From Planctomycetaceae bacterium (lineage in GTDB: Bacteria > Planctomycetota > Planctomycetia > Planctomycetales > Planctomycetaceae): DNA of 64,000 bases. The notes beneath the pieces were generated by a model, which worked only from the letters and a program-made list of their open reading frames with translations, had not been told where the DNA came from and made no database searches. Below, in pieces: positions 2,303 through 16,547 of this stretch. Position 1 is the first letter of the stretch; every line of letters starts with the position of its first letter. The stretch lies in NCBI GenBank assembly GCA_014762625.1, contig JABURQ010000112.1, forward strand, positions 1 through 64,000, in the 5' to 3' direction. The position numbers were made by a program, and so were the translations under genes.

Positions 2303-3409
2303 ATGTACCGATCCTGTCAACTCCTTTTGACCTTGTCACTCGCGATCATCGGCTCTCTTCCGGCCTCCTCTTTGGATGCCGCCGGACCGGATCCCGCTGT
2401 GTTGAAAAAGACGGTTTCGCAAGGGGTGGCGTTTTTGAAAACATCTCAGGCGGAAGACGGTAGCTGGACATCTCCCACTGCTCCCGGAGTGAGTGGCCTG
2501 GCGATGAATGGTCTTCTGGATGCCGGATTGACTGCGGACGACCCGACGGTGAAAAAGGGCCTCGCTCACCTGGAATCCTTCGTCAAGAAAGATGGGGGCA
2601 TCTATTACAAAGACAGCACCCATCGGAACTACGAAACCTGTATTGCGATGATGGTTTTCACAAAGGTAAACGCGGATGGGCGTTACGACAGCATCATCCG
2701 AAACGCGGAAAAGTTTCTGCGTGGCCTGCAATGGGATGAAGGAGAAGGATTGGAATCGAGCGACATCGCTTACGGAGGAGCCGGGTATGGAGGACACAAA
2801 CGGCCCGACTTGTCCAATACGCAGTTTCTGATTGAAGCTCTGAAATCGGCCGGCGTGAAAAACGACGACCCAGCGATCCAAAAAGCGCTACAATTCGTAT
2901 CTCGAACTCAAAATCTGGAAACCGAAAACAATAACACAGAATTCGCCGCCAAAGTGAACGATGGAGGTTTCTACTACACGCCCGCCGCGGGCGGTGAGTC
3001 GAAAGCGGGTAAAACAGCCAACGGTGGACTGCGATCGTACGCCAGTATGACGTATGCGGGACTGAAGAGCATGGTCTACGCCGGTCTCGAAAAAGACGAT
3101 CCCCGCGTTAAAGCCGCCTGGGAATGGATTACCAAGTATTACAATCTCGATGAGAATCCCGGCATGGGACAACAGGGACTGTTCTACTATTACCAGACGT
3201 TCGCCAAGACTCTCGACGTGATGGATGTCGATACTCTCGAAGACTCGCTCGGTCGGAAGCATGACTGGAGAGCCGAGTTGACCGGCAAACTGGCCGAGTC
3301 GCAGAGAGCCAACGGGAGTTGGATCAATGACGCAGACCGCTGGTACGAGGGAGACCCCAATCTGGTCACTGCCTACGCTTTGATGGCGCTGTCTCGCTGC
3401 GGCGAATGA
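2303..3409 (+). CDS. Secreted prenyltransferase/squalene-oxidase-repeat protein
   Basis: A 368-aa protein with an N-terminal signal peptide (basic MYRSC start, hydrophobic run, cleavage expected near the SSLDAAG stretch, residues 22-28). The mature part has several alpha/alpha-barrel repeats of the squalene cyclase/prenyltransferase superfamily: QAEDGSW, KKDGGIYY, NDGGFYY and RANGSW turns, each followed by a helical segment rich in Ala/Met/Leu. The DxDD catalytic motif of true squalene-hopene cyclases was not seen and the protein is about half their length, so it is probably a binding or structural protein in the periplasm. The ATG at 2303 was chosen because the upstream TTG extension only lengthens the signal peptide. 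Such proteins are common in Planctomycetes with unknown roles. Confidence 0.8.
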   Translation: MYRSCQLLLTLSLAIIGSLPASSLDAAGPDPAVLKKTVSQGVAFLKTSQAEDGSWTSPTAPGVSGLAMNGLLDAGLTADDPTVKKGLAHLESFVKKDGGIYYKDSTHRNYETCIAMMVFTKVNADGRYDSIIRNAEKFLRGLQWDEGEGLESSDIAYGGAGYGGHKRPDLSNTQFLIEALKSAGVKNDDPAIQKALQFVSRTQNLETENNNTEFAAKVNDGGFYYTPAAGGESKAGKTANGGLRSYASMTYAGLKSMVYAGLEKDDPRVKAAWEWITKYYNLDENPGMGQQGLFYYYQTFAKTLDVMDVDTLEDSLGRKHDWRAELTGKLAESQRANGSWINDADRWYEGDPNLVTAYALMALSRCGE

Positions 3410-3508: not shown

Positions 3509-5383
3509 ATGCCCGACTGGTCGTATCGGACCGTTTTCCGACCGATTCTGTTTCGCCTCACCCCTCCGGCGGGACGGACGTTGGCGTTTACGGTGATGGG
3601 ACGACTCGGGCGTTCGTGGTGGGGGCGACACGTCATCGAGTTTATGGGGCATTTCAAGCTCGATGAGAATCTGGAGAAGACGTTCGATGATTTAACGTTC
3701 CCCTCTCCCGTCGGAATCGGATGTCGGCTCGATCCTCGTCTTTCGGCTCACGAAGCGCTGGCAAAATTCGGTGTTGGCCTGATTGAAATGGGACCGGTCA
3801 CCGCCGAATCCGATTCTGCGCCGAAAATGATTCTCCATCCAGCAGACGAATCGATCGAGTTGCGGCCGACCGTGGAACGGGTTTCACTGAACGATGCGTG
3901 GAACCTGTTGAAAAAAACGTTCGACATTCCTGTTTTCGTACGCGTTCATGGTGAGGACGTCACGGCAACACAAGTCGTCGAAAAACTCGCGCCGCTTGTG
4001 GAAGGTTTCATCGTCGAAGAAGAATGCCCCCAGGTTCTCTGTGAAACAATTCGAGCGAATGAATCTAAATTGTTACGCCAGGTGACTGCCCAGACCTGGG
4101 ATGTCGTGATGTCATCTCCCGCCGAAATACCGGTGGATGGATACCTGGTGGAAGGGGTATCGAACAATACCGGGCACTCTATAACACTCGGTCGAGAAAG
4201 TTATCCGCAAACCTTGTCGCTGGTGGAATCTTTACGGGATATCGTGGGAGAGTTGCCACTGGTTATCGCGACAGGCGGCATTCACGAACCGGGAGACGGA
4301 TGGCAGTTGTTACAAGTGGGTGCCGATCTGGTGCTTGTCGATACGGGAATGGTGTTTTCCGGTCCCGGCTTACCGAAACGCATCAATGAAGCGGTGCTGT
4401 CGTACGATCCTCCGCCCCTCGATTCACCCACTCAAAAAGAAGCTCGTCCCGCTCAAATGTCATGGTTCTGGACGCTGCTGTTGGGAATCGGTTTGTTGGC
4501 GGGAGGCGTAATGGCGTTCCTCATCGCCACCACGCGTATCGTCTTACCGTACGACGAAGCGCACAGCGGATTGACGCGTGCCGACCTGCTGTTGATCAAT
4601 CCCAAATTGCTGGACTTTATGCAACACGACCGTGTTACGCTCGCCGGGACCATGTTGGGACTCGGAATCATCTACATCGCCCTCTCCTGGTATGGAAATC
4701 GGGGAGGTTATCATTGGGCCTATAAAGCGATTGTGACCTCGGCGTTCGTCGGGTTCTTCTCATTTTTTCTGTTCCTCGGATTCGGTTACTTCGACCCGTT
4801 TCATGCATTTGTGACGGCGATCATGTTTCAGTTTTTGACTCTCTCGATGCACAGCAATCTCCCCTCTATTCGCCGGCGACCGCTTCCGGAACTCACCAAC
4901 GATGCGGACTGGCAACGATCACAATGGGGACAATTGGTCATGGTGATTCACGGTGTCACGCTGATTGTGGCGGGAGTGATCATTTGCGGCTTCGGGGTGA
5001 CGAGCGTCTTTATTGAAGATGATTTGGAATACATGCAGGTCGATTACGACGAGATTTGCGCTTCAAATCCGATGCTTTTGCCGTTGGTCGCCCACGACCG
5101 GGCGACGTTCGGCGGAATGACACTCTCCACCGGACTCGCGGTATTGATGTCGGGCTTGTGGGGATTCCGTCGCGGGAATCGCTGGTTGTGGCGGGCACTG
5201 ATGGCGGGAGGGACGCTCTGTTATGTGATGACGCTGTGGATTCATTGGAAGGTCGGCTACGTCAGCGTCCGGCATTTGATTCCCGTTTACCTGGGACTGG
5301 CGATGCTGTGGACGAGCGGCTGCCTCTCGTATCGGCATCTGTGTACGGTTGAGTATGAACCGTCCTCTGTTTCCAATTCGTGA
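3509..5383 (+). CDS. Degenerate dihydroorotate dehydrogenase-like barrel fused to a duplicated membrane domain
   Basis: Residues 1 to about 300 follow class-2 DHODH: an N-terminal arm, SPVGIGCRLDPR (degenerate form of the PLGLAAGxDK motif), GLIEMGPVT, and a C-terminal phosphate-binding part with ATGGIHEPGDGW and GADLVLVDTGMVFSGPGLP. The NxSSPNTPGLR segment and the INRMGFNN segment are missing, so orotate binding and catalysis are unlikely. From about residue 315 there are roughly eight hydrophobic segments arranged as two related halves, each with NPxLL followed by an HDR motif (residues 373-375 and 529-531) and a Gly-rich helix. A GGGAG-type ribosome site lies 7 bases before the ATG. It looks like a membrane-anchored flavin-barrel pseudoenzyme; its role is unknown. 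It should not be called PyrD without further proof. Confidence 0.75.
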   Translation: MPDWSYRTVFRPILFRLTPPAGRTLAFTVMGRLGRSWWGRHVIEFMGHFKLDENLEKTFDDLTFPSPVGIGCRLDPRLSAHEALAKFGVGLIEMGPVTAESDSAPKMILHPADESIELRPTVERVSLNDAWNLLKKTFDIPVFVRVHGEDVTATQVVEKLAPLVEGFIVEEECPQVLCETIRANESKLLRQVTAQTWDVVMSSPAEIPVDGYLVEGVSNNTGHSITLGRESYPQTLSLVESLRDIVGELPLVIATGGIHEPGDGWQLLQVGADLVLVDTGMVFSGPGLPKRINEAVLSYDPPPLDSPTQKEARPAQMSWFWTLLLGIGLLAGGVMAFLIATTRIVLPYDEAHSGLTRADLLLINPKLLDFMQHDRVTLAGTMLGLGIIYIALSWYGNRGGYHWAYKAIVTSAFVGFFSFFLFLGFGYFDPFHAFVTAIMFQFLTLSMHSNLPSIRRRPLPELTNDADWQRSQWGQLVMVIHGVTLIVAGVIICGFGVTSVFIEDDLEYMQVDYDEICASNPMLLPLVAHDRATFGGMTLSTGLAVLMSGLWGFRRGNRWLWRALMAGGTLCYVMTLWIHWKVGYVSVRHLIPVYLGLAMLWTSGCLSYRHLCTVEYEPSSVSNS

Positions 5384-11840: not shown

Positions 11841-14800
11841 CTAAGATTGAGGAATACCGAGGAGCATCTCCTCTTCTTCCTGGATAATGATGCGTGGTGT
11901 TACCATCAGCATCACACTCTCAGCACTACGACCCACACCGGTGTTCTTGAACAGGCGGCTGACATAAGGCAGCTTGTTCAGGATTGGCACACCGGCCATG
12001 TTTCGTCCTTCTGACATCGTTTTGACGCCACCCAGCAGAACAGTTCCACCGTCCGGGACACTGACCGTGGTTTGCACGGTCACGATGTCCACGATCGGCT
12101 GCTGAATCGTAAAGCTGCCGGCGCTTCCACCAGTATTATTGTTGTTACCTTGGTTGTTACCTTGGTTACCACCTTGGTTACCACCTTGGTTACCACCTTG
12201 GTTACCACCGGTATTTCCACCGATAGCACCAACCCCGACGTTCCCCACTGCCCCACCGGGGATGGAGAAAGTCTGGACGTCGGTGATGGCAGTGAAGTTC
12301 GGTGAGACCGAAAGTCTCACATAACGACGATCGGCAGAGATCACCGCGGCAACCCCCATGAAGATACCTTCCGGAATCGATGTGATGATCGGTTGAAAAC
12401 CAACTGATCCCACCGACACCACCGGTCGGAATCCGGTCACAAACGGTCGCTGTGCGAACTTCCCGACAAAAGCGGCCTGTCCGTTGAACAGCGTCACTTT
12501 CGGAGCCAGGAGGATATTCGATCGGCTGTCCCCTTGAGCGGCGTTGATGAAGAAGAAGGCTTCAATATCGCTCAGGATCGCAAATCCCATCGAGGCTCCT
12601 GCGGAGAGGTCCGTATTCACAAACTCCGGCACACCGAGGTCAAACGATCCTTGTCGGAATCCAATATCTAGGTCATCCGTAAATGTCTGGTTCGGATCGG
12701 ACAGTCCCACAATCGACCCCCCGAAGTTATCGAGATTGGGGAGATTGTTGGATTGTGGATCGAAGGAGTTGCTTGTCGCACCACCGGTATTATTATTGTT
12801 GTTGTTATTGTTGTTATTGTTATTGTTGTTCGTCGTGCCCGCACCGCCGGGTGATCCGAAGGGAGGCGTTCCATCATCGTCGATGCCGACGTTGTCGTTG
12901 ACGTTGAAGTCAAAGTCGACCCCAATTCGTTCGAAGAACTCATCGGAGACGGTGATGAAGCGAACTTCGATCGTCACCTGCAAGTCCTGGAGACGTCGCA
13001 ACTGTTCCAGCAGGTCGATGATTTGATCGTGGACCTGTTGGGTCTGGCGAATCACCAGCGACAAGGTGGATTCCGAGGCCATCAGCGAACCGCTGCCGTT
13101 GAACTCGGTCCAGGTATCAGGCTCGACAGTAGTCGTAATCAGCCCGCTCAGTTCCTCGAAGTTCACTTTGGCGGTGCGTTGATTATCGGTTCCGACCGTC
13201 GGAGCTCCTCCGAAGGGTGACGAGTTAGAAGCGAACGTTCCGTTATCCGGAATCTGCATCATTCCGGGAACGATTCCCAGATCGACACCGCTACCGTTAT
13301 TCGCCACCGATCCCCCAAATCCTCCACTGCTGAAGTTCGGGATATAGGGACCCATCATTTCAGGGCTCGGTTGGAAGTTTGCCAGAGGAACGACGAGGTC
13401 GGCGACCGGATAGGATCGCGTGACCAGTTTTCCTTGCTGACGCATGTTGTTGGTGATCTTGAGAACTTCATCCTCGATGTTGTAACCGAGTTCCATCGGC
13501 TTGAGGATCAGGTTCAAGGCCGATTTCAGCATGATGCCATCGACATCGATCGAAATCGGAGTACTCGCTTCGATCCCCACTTCGGCCAAAGCCGGCCCAT
13601 CTACGTAGACCGTGATGCCCATCAGGTTGGCGACGTGCTTCATGACGTCGGTGAGCGGAGCGTTGTCGAAGTGTAGCGAGATTTGGCGAGAGAGAGATTC
13701 TTCAATCTTCTTCTCGGATTCCGTACGAACTTTGTTATCCGGACCGCCGAAACCACGACGAAGATCGGTGATTTCTTTCCACCGTTGAGCATCGTAGGCG
13801 ATGGGATCGGAATGAACCGGATTCAGAGCTGAAAGTTCGACATCGTTCAGAACATCGATGAAGTTCTGTTCTTTGTCTTCTTTCAGTTGGTTGTTGAAAG
13901 CGATTCGACGAGCGAATTTGGCTTTCCATTTCATCACTTCACTGACCGGGTTCTCGGGATCGAGTTCCACAGCCTGCTTAGCGATCACTTCCGCTTCGGC
14001 AAACCGTCGCTGGTCCATCAATCCGTTAAACTCATCGACCAGTTTGGCGAGTTCCTGTTCGACGCGAATCTGAGAATCAATTCGAGATTCGACAATCGCC
14101 AGGTTCTCTTCGTTCCGTCGTTTGAGTTCCAGCAAGGGAGCTTGTTGCTCTTTGTAGGAGTTGACGGAGGTTTGCGTGCGACGAATACTGTTGATCAGAT
14201 TCTTGGCGGCTTCGTCTCCGACATCGGAGTTTTCCACGCTGGCCAGAGCCTGATCGAGAACCGTCAATGCCTGATCCGGATCTTTCTCCCGCAGACGTTC
14301 CGCTTTGAAGATCGAATTCATGACGTCCGAACGAAGTCGGTCGTAGGCGATGGCTCGTTGTTGTTCGACCAAGTCCAGTTGTTGAGGAGCCGAGTCGTAG
14401 CTGTTACCGGCAGTCAGTTGCACACCCGCTTGTCCTTTCGGAGCCAACTCTCGCAGGAAGTCCTGCAATTGCTGACGACGACGAGGATCGAGTTGTTCCT
14501 GCTGACGATAAGCCGACAGGAAAGCTTCTCGTGCGGCCGGCATGTTGCCGTTGGTCATCTGTGACAGACCCGCATCGAAGAGTTGGTCAGCCGACATGGT
14601 AGCCGGATAGACTGGAGTAGCGTTATTGGCCGTGGCTGCGAAGGGGGACGTGCCCGCTCCCGCAGTTGGCTGGTAACCCGCTGGGTTGACCGGTCCGCCA
14701 AACGGATTGCTCGTCATGGCGGCCAAATCACGCAACACGAGCTCAGGACGATCGTCGATCGCTCCGTAAGTGGCATCGAGTTGATCGGCCATCAGGGCTT

Positions 14801-16160
14801 TCTGCTTGGCAACTTCAAATTGTCCGGCTCGCAAGGCTTGCCGTGCTTCGCGAACGAGCTGGGCAGCTTTTGAGGCGGAAGGAGAACTGGTCGAGGCAGC
14901 AGGAGGAGTCGTGGCATTGGCTTGAGCAACGATCGACGTGTTGGGCGATGCCGAAGGTTGCATTTGCTCGATGTCCGACATCACCTTTTGAGGCGTGTCA
15001 TCGAAGAGCTGATAAGCCACATTCATTTGACTGGCAGCCGAAGCTTTCGCCCAGGCTTCATCAACGCGTCCCGCTTGCAGTGCGGCTCGGGCATCCGCCA
15101 CCAATTGTCGAGCGCGAGCGGCGTCCGCGTTAGCGGAAGCGTTCGGCTGCGTTGATGGTTGAGGAGCTTGAGCCACATTGGCGGTCGGAGCGTTCGAGTC
15201 ACCCGCCATCGCGATTTCCAGATCCTGGAGAACCGTTTCAGGACGATCGTCGAGTAACGAATAAGCCACGTCCAACTCTTGGGCGGCGGTTGCTTTCTGA
15301 TAAGCGGTGTCGTAGTTGCCTGAGAGCAACGCTTGACGCGCTTCTTTCACGAGACCTTGTGCGACCTGTTTGTCGCTGGAAGAACCGGATGGTGCGGCGG
15401 TCGGCTGAGCGGCCGCCAATCGTGCCAGGTCATCCAATAATAATTCCGGAGTGTCCTCAAATAAGCCGTATGAGACTTTCAGGCCTTGAGCTTTCCGGGC
15501 TTTTTCGCGAGCGGCAGCCAGTCGACCGGCACTCATGTCGGTGCGAGCTTCCCGCAACAACGTCAAGGCCTGGCTTTTTACAGAACCGGAAGCAGCCGCA
15601 TCGGCGGATCCGGTTTGCTGAATCGGAGCCGATTGACCGGGGCTGAATTGCCCTTGAGCGGTCACGACACCCTGATTCTGCTCTGGAGTGAAGGTCAGTC
15701 CGCCGGTGCGTCGCTCGATTTCACTCAACACAAGCTGAGGATTGTCTTCGAAGACAGCGTACTTGGCGTTTAACTGCTGGGCTTCGGCGGCCTTTTGACG
15801 GGCGATATCGAAGCGACCTGCTTTCAGCTCTTTGCGAGCCGACTGCAACAGTTTGACCGCGTTCCGTTTTTCAGGAGAGTCAAACGGCAGCGGACCGCTG
15901 GTCGTGCCGAATTGACTGTCGCCCGAGTCGGGTGACTGAGCACGCACGGTCGGTTGTTCGGTTGCAGGTCGGGCTGCAATCGATGAGTAACCGGAAACGG
16001 GAGAGTATCCCGTCGCCGAACGGTTTGTCGAGAGAGACGGGGATGTCCCCGCGGTCTCAACACCAGCGATCGCCCGGGAGGGGGAGTCACCAAGATTGGT
16101 GATCCACAACCCCGCCGCGATCAGCGTGGTACAGGCTATCATTCCATATGCTTTGCCCAA
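11841..16160 (-). CDS. Large secretin (type II/III secretion family) with N-terminal helical repeats
   Basis: About 1439 aa. A hydrophobic N-terminus is followed by five copies of a roughly 50-residue unit of the form LVREARQALxxG..A..KA..A..L...Y...DDxPExVLxDL, between about residues 95 and 475. A long helical region follows, then a secretin N-domain (LHFDNAPLTDVMKHVANL, near 827) and the C-terminal secretin barrel from about 1060 (VTIEVRFITVSDEFFERIG) to VPILNKLPYVSRLF and MLMVTPRIII near 1400. It should form an outer-membrane channel. The barrel contains a run of 14 Asn (12789-12830) and GGNQ repeats. The start is set by GGAGG at 16173-16169 before TTG at 16160; an earlier in-frame TTG (16175) lacks such a site. 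A PPIC foldase lies upstream. No secretion ATPase or pseudopilin gene adjoins it. Confidence 0.9.
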   Translation of the reverse strand: MGKAYGMIACTTLIAAGLWITNLGDSPSRAIAGVETAGTSPSLSTNRSATGYSPVSGYSSIAARPATEQPTVRAQSPDSGDSQFGTTSGPLPFDSPEKRNAVKLLQSARKELKAGRFDIARQKAAEAQQLNAKYAVFEDNPQLVLSEIERRTGGLTFTPEQNQGVVTAQGQFSPGQSAPIQQTGSADAAASGSVKSQALTLLREARTDMSAGRLAAAREKARKAQGLKVSYGLFEDTPELLLDDLARLAAAQPTAAPSGSSSDKQVAQGLVKEARQALLSGNYDTAYQKATAAQELDVAYSLLDDRPETVLQDLEIAMAGDSNAPTANVAQAPQPSTQPNASANADAARARQLVADARAALQAGRVDEAWAKASAASQMNVAYQLFDDTPQKVMSDIEQMQPSASPNTSIVAQANATTPPAASTSSPSASKAAQLVREARQALRAGQFEVAKQKALMADQLDATYGAIDDRPELVLRDLAAMTSNPFGGPVNPAGYQPTAGAGTSPFAATANNATPVYPATMSADQLFDAGLSQMTNGNMPAAREAFLSAYRQQEQLDPRRRQQLQDFLRELAPKGQAGVQLTAGNSYDSAPQQLDLVEQQRAIAYDRLRSDVMNSIFKAERLREKDPDQALTVLDQALASVENSDVGDEAAKNLINSIRRTQTSVNSYKEQQAPLLELKRRNEENLAIVESRIDSQIRVEQELAKLVDEFNGLMDQRRFAEAEVIAKQAVELDPENPVSEVMKWKAKFARRIAFNNQLKEDKEQNFIDVLNDVELSALNPVHSDPIAYDAQRWKEITDLRRGFGGPDNKVRTESEKKIEESLSRQISLHFDNAPLTDVMKHVANLMGITVYVDGPALAEVGIEASTPISIDVDGIMLKSALNLILKPMELGYNIEDEVLKITNNMRQQGKLVTRSYPVADLVVPLANFQPSPEMMGPYIPNFSSGGFGGSVANNGSGVDLGIVPGMMQIPDNGTFASNSSPFGGAPTVGTDNQRTAKVNFEELSGLITTTVEPDTWTEFNGSGSLMASESTLSLVIRQTQQVHDQIIDLLEQLRRLQDLQVTIEVRFITVSDEFFERIGVDFDFNVNDNVGIDDDGTPPFGSPGGAGTTNNNNNNNNNNNNNNTGGATSNSFDPQSNNLPNLDNFGGSIVGLSDPNQTFTDDLDIGFRQGSFDLGVPEFVNTDLSAGASMGFAILSDIEAFFFINAAQGDSRSNILLAPKVTLFNGQAAFVGKFAQRPFVTGFRPVVSVGSVGFQPIITSIPEGIFMGVAAVISADRRYVRLSVSPNFTAITDVQTFSIPGGAVGNVGVGAIGGNTGGNQGGNQGGNQGGNQGNNQGNNNNTGGSAGSFTIQQPIVDIVTVQTTVSVPDGGTVLLGGVKTMSEGRNMAGVPILNKLPYVSRLFKNTGVGRSAESVMLMVTPRIIIQEEEEMLLGIPQS
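12146..12210 (-). repeat. 12-bp minisatellite encoding GGNQ repeats
   Basis: Near-perfect tandem copies of a 12-base unit (TTACCACCTTGG on the plus strand) encode four GGNQ units followed by GNNQ variants in the secretin barrel region. The unit is a multiple of three, so copy-number changes keep the reading frame. Confidence 0.85.
12789..12830 (-). repeat. Asn-coding trinucleotide tract (14 codons)
   Basis: Fourteen consecutive AAC/AAT codons, mixed, giving a poly-asparagine run inside the secretin domain. Probably a surface loop; a slippage-prone but frame-preserving tract. Confidence 0.85.
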
Positions 16161-16547
16161 CGTACTGTCCTCCAATATAGACCAGAGAGTGTCTTGGTTA
16201 AAAAACTCTTTGACATTCGTGCGACGAAAACGGGAAAGCCTCCGGAAACTTATTTCCAGAACGACTTACCAGTCGGCGTCGTGCGACTGTCGGTTGTCAT
16301 GCGAATTGTAAAAGTGAAGTTTCCGACGGGATTGCCGGAAGGTGTGACTTGTTGTTTGCCGGACGAGCTTGGGAGGTCGAATGGCAAACGGAGTTATCGT
16401 GATCGGAATCGATCGTTGATGTGACTTGTGTGGGGTAAATATTGAATCCCCCGAATAGGGTCAAGGGGAGGATTCGATTTTTTTCTACTCTTTTTTCAGG
16501 ATTGTAGTTTTTGTTTTCGGACGGCAGGAACTGCCGGTTTTGGCCGA
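16161..16547. other. Intergenic region upstream of the secretin gene
   Basis: 387 bases between two leftward genes. It probably contains the secretin promoter and the end of the foldase transcript. It is AT-richer near 16430-16500. A hairpin at 16444-16475 is listed separately. No protein-coding frame here is convincing and no promoter boxes could be fixed. Confidence 0.45.
16444..16483 (+). terminator. Possible hairpin between foldase and secretin genes
   Basis: GAATCCCCC pairs imperfectly with GGGGAGGATTC (ends 16444 and 16475). A T-run at 16477-16483 follows on the plus strand, whereas the neighbouring genes run leftwards. It may act in both directions downstream of the foldase stop, or mark an unseen rightward transcript. 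Confidence 0.35.

Follow-up and report, generated by a model that had tools for sequence, protein, structure and literature searches.

Does a gene that resembles a dihydroorotate dehydrogenase (DHODH) but carries a large membrane domain still encode an enzyme, and which half of its product is likely to do the work? The question is raised by one gene in the window, which is the whole 64,000-nucleotide stretch of Planctomycetaceae DNA analysed here (contig JABURQ010000112.1). The open reading frame begins with ATG and encodes 624 amino acids. Its start codon is backed by the motif PD[WY]xY, found at the place aligned with residue 2 in all 20 fusion barrels compared, each trimmed to the residue aligned with residue 1. 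The structure of the whole protein was predicted with AF2 from an input alignment of 17 family proteins, with a mean pLDDT of 84.9. The features discussed below are as follows.

3509..5383, + strand: whole gene, 624 aa, a putative pseudo-DHODH barrel followed by a membrane domain modelled as an eight-helix tandem repeat; full-length relatives exist
3509..3658, + strand: N-terminal helices, residues 1-50 (MPDWSY...), the counterpart of the membrane-facing helices of class-2 DHODH
3797..4228, + strand: barrel middle, residues 97-240, the expected place of the DHODH catalytic motifs; unconserved
4256..4396, + strand: C-terminal phosphate-site end, residues 250-296 (GGIHEP ... DTGMVFSGPGLPKRINEA); kept
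4460..4849, + strand: membrane repeat 1, residues 318-447, with D349, H373-D374-R375 and H432; AF2 helices 318-342, 367-397, 402-423 and 430-447
4904..5344, + strand: membrane repeat 2, residues 466-612, with D505, H529-D530-R531 and H589; AF2 helices 466-498, 523-551, 558-582 and 587-612

Rfam gave no matches in the window, and promoter and terminator scans of it showed no clear excess over shuffles.

The initial annotation had described the N-terminal part as a class-2 DHODH-like barrel stripped of its orotate motifs, with the phosphate region kept, and had concluded that the protein is not PyrD. The searches bear this out. Pfam DHO_dh matches best over residues 234-295 (E 9.5e-8, 32 bits against a cut-off of 27), and NCBIfam class-2 models reach E values down to 6e-23, although at 81.6 bits against a cut-off of 267. 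TIGR01036 gives 46.4 bits, far from its curated cut-off of 200. The fold agrees: the first 305 residues of the AF2 model match class-2 DHODHs at Z of about 31-32, with 6b8s_B at VIA-align Z 32.4 (rmsd 2.5, 297 residues).

The catalytic motifs are gone. An alignment-free search found neither NxSSPN nor NRMGF in this protein, and both are missing from 31 of 31 fusion proteins from three phyla (20 plus 11 further ones), while the same motif types (NxSSPN and INRMGFNN) were both found in 4/4 class-2 DHODH controls. When the family barrels were aligned with E. coli PyrD and three other class-2 sequences, the PyrD positions K66, N111, N139, N172, K217 and N246 were conserved in 0/20, and G325 and P326 in 20/20, with G320 in 19/20; the alignment is weak in the barrel middle, also round K217, which makes single-residue calls there uncertain, and the motif search does not depend on it. 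We take N139, N172 and K217 to be contacts of the flavin ring and ribityl, and Lys66 and Lys217 presumably contact flavin and orotate. The suggestion in the initial annotation that the protein could be flavin-bound is not supported as it stands: with the equivalents of N139, N172 and K217 lost in all 20 barrels, flavin binding is unlikely.

What remains of the barrel is not spread evenly. Among 17 fusions, residues 97-240 have a mean identity of 20%, whereas residues 1-50 have a mean pairwise identity of 57% with 11/50 positions invariant, and residues 250-296, which retain the GGI...GPG phosphate-site end, also have 57%, with 9/47 invariant. Both come close to the conservation of the membrane domain (59%). 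Because the middle is unconserved and the two ends are conserved, the remnant appears to consist of what we take to be the membrane-facing part and the flavin-phosphate-holding part of class-2 enzymes. Compared with PyrD, the class-2, quinone-dependent DHODH, the fusion shares the whole-barrel fold, the N-terminal helices and the C-terminal phosphate-site end, but lacks NxSSPN, NRMGF and the equivalents of K66 and K217, and carries a large membrane domain. The barrel seems to be a class-2 DHODH fold that no longer carries out orotate chemistry, as judged from its sequence.

The membrane half turned out to be a duplication, as the initial annotation had proposed. In the AF2 model, residues 318-612 form eight long helices, a count that rests on models, since a plain hydropathy scan (mean over 1.6) detects only four of the eight; modelled alone, the domain has a pLDDT of 90.3. 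The two halves, compared as family profiles, align with an hhalign probability of 99.7% (E 1.6e-26, 137 columns). Their pairwise score is 105, against a mean of 31 and a maximum of 55 in 500 shuffles, and in six proteins tested the half-versus-half score lies above all 500 shuffles (z 15 to 24). The halves are homologous beyond composition. The modelled helix starts pair up as 318/466, 347/503, 357/513, 367/523, 402/558 and 430/587, so that each half-2 helix lies 156-157 residues after its counterpart, except for the first, at 148. The motifs keep the same step of 156 residues: NPKLL at 364-368 and HDR at 373-375 in the first half, NPMLL at 520-524 and HDR at 529-531 in the second. A search for an unduplicated four-helix ancestor found none at E 0.001 in 61 genomes of the order, bar a contig-end fragment in one of them (G004).

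When both halves of 20 of the 30 proteins in the family alignment (A4) were stacked as 40 repeat units, the only invariant columns were a D, the H-D-R triplet, a G and an H, of which the D, the triplet and the H correspond to D349/D505, H373-R375/H529-R531 and H432/H589 of this protein. HDR occurs twice in 28/28 lone membrane proteins and in 12/12 further proteins checked, and a stricter pattern for the whole unit occurs twice in 25/28 and 10/12 of them. On the barrel side, basic residues (Lys, Arg) outnumber acidic ones (Asp, Glu) in the loops, in two of five regions only slightly, and the opposite loops lean acidic; by the positive-inside rule, this would place the barrel in the cytosol and the D/HDR/H residues near the outer face. 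The stretch at window positions 5066-5116 (residues 520-536 of this protein, P0001), with the pattern NPxLxPLxAHDRAxFGG, weakly resembles RNA polymerase beta; these matches, over about 44 positions with a best E of 0.0055, were taken as chance or convergence.

Known relatives of the membrane half were sought by sequence and by fold. Pfam and NCBIfam gave no convincing match to it. SPW, DUF2568 and DUF4345 of Pfam, presumably small four-helix membrane families, were matched weakly by two or three members (best E 0.00059, 0.006 and 0.018), and DUF2568 reached 17.3 bits on this protein, below its gathering cut-off of 24.2. The only notable fold match of the membrane domain is 8xqw chain O, one of the subunits of the Ycf2-FtsHi import motor of Chlamydomonas, with a Foldseek probability of 0.99 and E 0.036. 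VIA aligns it over 255 residues at an rmsd of 7.3 with Z 15.7, which, by the tool's own note, is only slightly above the level that helical models reach in general. Three profiles gave no sequence match to it at E up to 10, and this match may serve as a lead without sequence support. Beside it, no match listed from the fold libraries exceeds Z 9.2, which does not make the fold new. The viral fold library gave nothing convincing, PHROGs matched the barrel end only, and PADLOC, given two proteins, gave nothing. Nothing on the fusion was found among open-licence papers, judged from their listings. The membrane family is thus apparently undescribed, as had been suspected: no model or paper that convincingly covers it came out of these searches. 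Pseudoenzymes joined to membrane domains are a known kind of protein, and this one is a variant of that kind.

Selection separates the two halves. In four genome pairs, dN/dS of the membrane domain is 0.049, 0.039, 0.045 and 0.051, that of the barrel is 0.235, 0.227, 0.110 and 0.190, and that of the genuine DHODH of the same genomes is 0.042, 0.025, 0.034 and 0.024; one of the four pairs, L009/L010, also has a high dS. Two further comparisons, L012/L019 (0.217 for the barrel, 0.142 for the membrane domain) and the window against L008, were set aside because their synonymous sites are saturated or undefined. Constraint falls mainly on the membrane domain, which evolves as slowly as the true enzyme, while the barrel evolves faster. 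Judged from the four pairs, the former evolves as a protein that the cell needs would, and the latter is retained under loose constraint. The initial annotation had missed this, along with two observations that follow: the barrel shrinks or disappears in relatives, and lone copies of the membrane domain often sit beside a desaturase-like gene.

The family is patchy in its distribution. A search of 170 genomes of the order with this protein gave matches in 30, its own genome included. A profile of the membrane domain matches at least 58 of 397 genomes in a sample of the class, and a profile of the barrel-less type at least 6 of 392 in a sample of the phylum; at most five candidates per genome were scored in these two samples, so both counts are lower bounds. 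One fusion, L039, comes from another class of the phylum. Outside Planctomycetota, where the sampling covered plasmid records only, a fusion was found on a Cytobacillus spongiae plasmid record and another on a Mycobacterium branderi plasmid, in which the barrel has shrunk to about 194 aa and lacks GGI. Among these three outliers and this protein, L039 has by score the least degraded barrel (Pfam 69.8 bits; TIGR01036 102 bits against 200), and it too lacks both catalytic motifs.

Many planctomycete relatives have no barrel at all. A search of every frame at 30 barrel-less loci turned up none, and 6/6 control fusions were detected. In a tree of 30 membrane domains, the L039 fusion groups with eight barrel-less proteins with support of 100/100, and the eight without L039 have 83/86; the tree is midpoint-rooted and two of its rows, Cytobacillus and Mycobacterium, sit on long branches, which leaves the order of gain and loss unproven. 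A single fusion followed by loss of the barrel is the simplest reading, because the fusions on either side share the MPD[WY]xY start and the same barrel. The ancestor of the sampled family probably had the barrel, which then eroded or disappeared in several lineages. One more barrel-less protein, L138, which is outside the tree, has a membrane sequence that by eye is of the fusion type and no barrel in any frame of its locus, and this hints at a second loss.

Several loci show irregular genes. A Mycobacterium intracellulare plasmid (L051:2501-2725, NZ_CP012886.2) carries a short, relic-like CDS whose match to the M. branderi fusion is confined to residues 1-61 of the latter. In L027 / L064 (G005), an in-frame TAG between the repeats of a lone membrane gene leaves frames of 216 and 157 aa. 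L024 (G154) has its barrel and its membrane domain in separate frames that overlap, through either a real frameshift or an assembly error.

The lone membrane genes have a recurrent neighbour. At 16 of 29 barrel-less loci, the membrane gene adjoins a homologue of one desaturase-like protein, and a direct tblastn search with two such proteins found the same 16; the 29 are the loci fetched, with fragmentary matches left out (e.g. G004, G020, G060, G644, G687, G699, G707) and several flanks ending at a contig end. The neighbour is on the same strand in 16/16, upstream in 6 and downstream in 10. In 15 cases no more than 45 bases separate its match from the membrane gene, or the match runs into the end of that gene; in L165 it lies 182 bases from the start as called. 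Looser clustering had also paired L066 and L149 with such a gene; they were dropped, as the direct tblastn search found none there.

PF00487 matches the neighbour in all ten of the 16 genomes that were scanned, and three histidine boxes are present in 12/16 neighbour frames as called, the other four being short or cut frames that lack one. These two features it shares with the CrtR-like beta-carotene hydroxylases and fatty acid desaturases of PF00487. CrtR is the closest named NCBIfam family in 7/8 cases; at 27-56 bits against a cut-off of 475, the neighbour is not CrtR itself. A genome holds between 0 and 11 PF00487 matches (20 genomes), and at that density 16 of 29 is far above what accident would give, in an informal comparison in which related genomes are not independent.

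At the fusion loci the picture is different. The desaturase-like neighbour is found at 0/12 of them and is lacking in this window too, as it is also missing from 13/29 lone loci, and no operon is conserved around the fusion outside the genus. Squalene-cyclase-like, aldo/keto reductase and TauD neighbours are common only to three genomes of the same genus, and a Gfo/Idh/MocA-type neighbour gene recurs in one other locus (L057). Directly upstream, at 2303-3406 (+), lies a squalene-hopene-cyclase-like repeat protein with, by eye, an apparent signal peptide, kept in L004 and L005 of the same genus. Further along, 11841-16175 (-) holds a 1444-aa ORF with repeated N-terminal units, Asn runs and an end that looks secretin-like by eye.

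What, then, might the protein do? The working part would be the membrane domain at the C-terminus, whose eight helices are a four-helix unit duplicated in tandem; the D, HDR and H of each unit, near the outer face, probably form one cofactor or ligand site. The N-terminal dead barrel, which keeps only its N-terminal helices and phosphate-site end, may be a cytosolic cap or docking domain. The membrane domain could be the partner of a membrane di-iron, desaturase- or hydroxylase-like enzyme that modifies lipids, or act in the same process, and its job there might be to supply electrons through a bound heme, metal or quinone, or to handle substrate. A partner of a lipid-modifying enzyme seems the likeliest role because the lone copies so often pair with the desaturase-like gene; since the fusion loci and the window lack such a neighbour, this role may not extend to the fusions.

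These parts are held with different confidence. That the protein is a pseudoenzyme barrel on a membrane core is very probable. We favour, with moderate confidence, the whole explanation of a membrane protein that binds a cofactor or ligand and is tied to lipid-type di-iron enzymes, with the non-catalytic barrel as its cytosolic cap. The redox-partner part is tentative. More speculative is the fuller account, a conjecture we consider doubtful: a putative, undescribed membrane redox module, a four-helix repeat in tandem with two D/HDR/H cofactor sites, would feed or aid membrane di-iron enzymes of the desaturase/hydroxylase type. It would have originated in a DHODH-like flavoprotein that reduced quinone, as the membrane half of that protein, whose enzyme half then died and was trimmed away in several lineages.

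A different reading gives the barrel more to do. It might still bind flavin or another phosphorylated ligand and pass electrons or a signal to the membrane domain, making the protein a flavin- or nucleotide-dependent membrane redox protein or sensor, which is close to the view taken in the initial annotation. The retained GGI...GPG end speaks for this, as do the residues P261, G285-L288, K290 and R291, invariant in 17 fusions. Class-2 DHODHs pass electrons to membrane quinone, and desaturase-like partners need electrons. The barrel is still under purifying selection and has its phosphate-site end, so it may have a ligand and be more than a cap. However, the three flavin contacts are lost throughout the 20 barrels, 0/144 positions of the barrel middle are invariant, GGI itself is missing from three of the 20, and many relatives have no barrel, all of which makes this reading unlikely.

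The membrane domain could also be a two-repeat transporter or channel in which D, HDR and H line a substrate or proton path, and eight helices in two repeats with invariant charged residues in or near the membrane are what such a protein might show. Many transporters, however, have inverted repeats, whereas four helices per repeat make these repeats parallel; there is no good match to a transporter fold (the Foldseek matches listed below the first have probabilities of at most 0.25), and the pairing with the desaturase-like gene also argues against it. We regard a transporter as quite unlikely.

Very unlikely, in our judgement, is that the barrel is functionless and simply decaying towards loss. 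Its relaxed dN/dS, its unconserved middle and the shrunken or missing barrels of relatives would all fit, but its dN/dS is still 0.11-0.24 in the four pairs, no stop interrupts it in the 17 aligned fusions, and its two ends are conserved about as well as the membrane domain.

A working quinone-dependent DHODH, which the class-2 fold, the family-level similarity and the annotation of one Cytobacillus relative (WP_233811857.1) would suggest, has next to no chance of being right, given the two motifs missing from every fusion, the low TIGR01036 score and another, high-scoring DHODH (at least 206 bits) in 27/27 carrier genomes tested. Those 27 comprise 18 with a fusion and 9 with a lone membrane gene, with five of the 32 carriers then known left out. 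The separate DHODH has the class-1 motif N[IV]SCPN in 24/27 genomes and SSPN in the other three, and a gene for a PyrK-type iron-sulphur domain is also present in the genome that the window comes from. The same genome encodes a third protein of the DHO_dh family (L002, on G000 contig C132; 363 aa, FSCPN motif), which is neither the high-scoring PyrD nor the fusion.

The Cytobacillus copy (L045:4305-6077, NZ_CP089998.1) is named 'dihydroorotate dehydrogenase' in RefSeq and lacks both catalytic motifs, and this name is very likely wrong. A DHODH name on at least one family member without the active site can mislead metabolic models.

The family lays out the death of an enzyme domain as a readable series: moderate in L039, heavy in this window, shrunken in Mycobacterium and gone in the lone membrane genes. 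Throughout the fusion pairs tested, the membrane domain is under strong selection. We know of no identified electron donor for many bacterial membrane desaturases. For an uncharacterised membrane domain that occurs in three phyla, the pairing with desaturase-like genes is a lead that can be tested directly.
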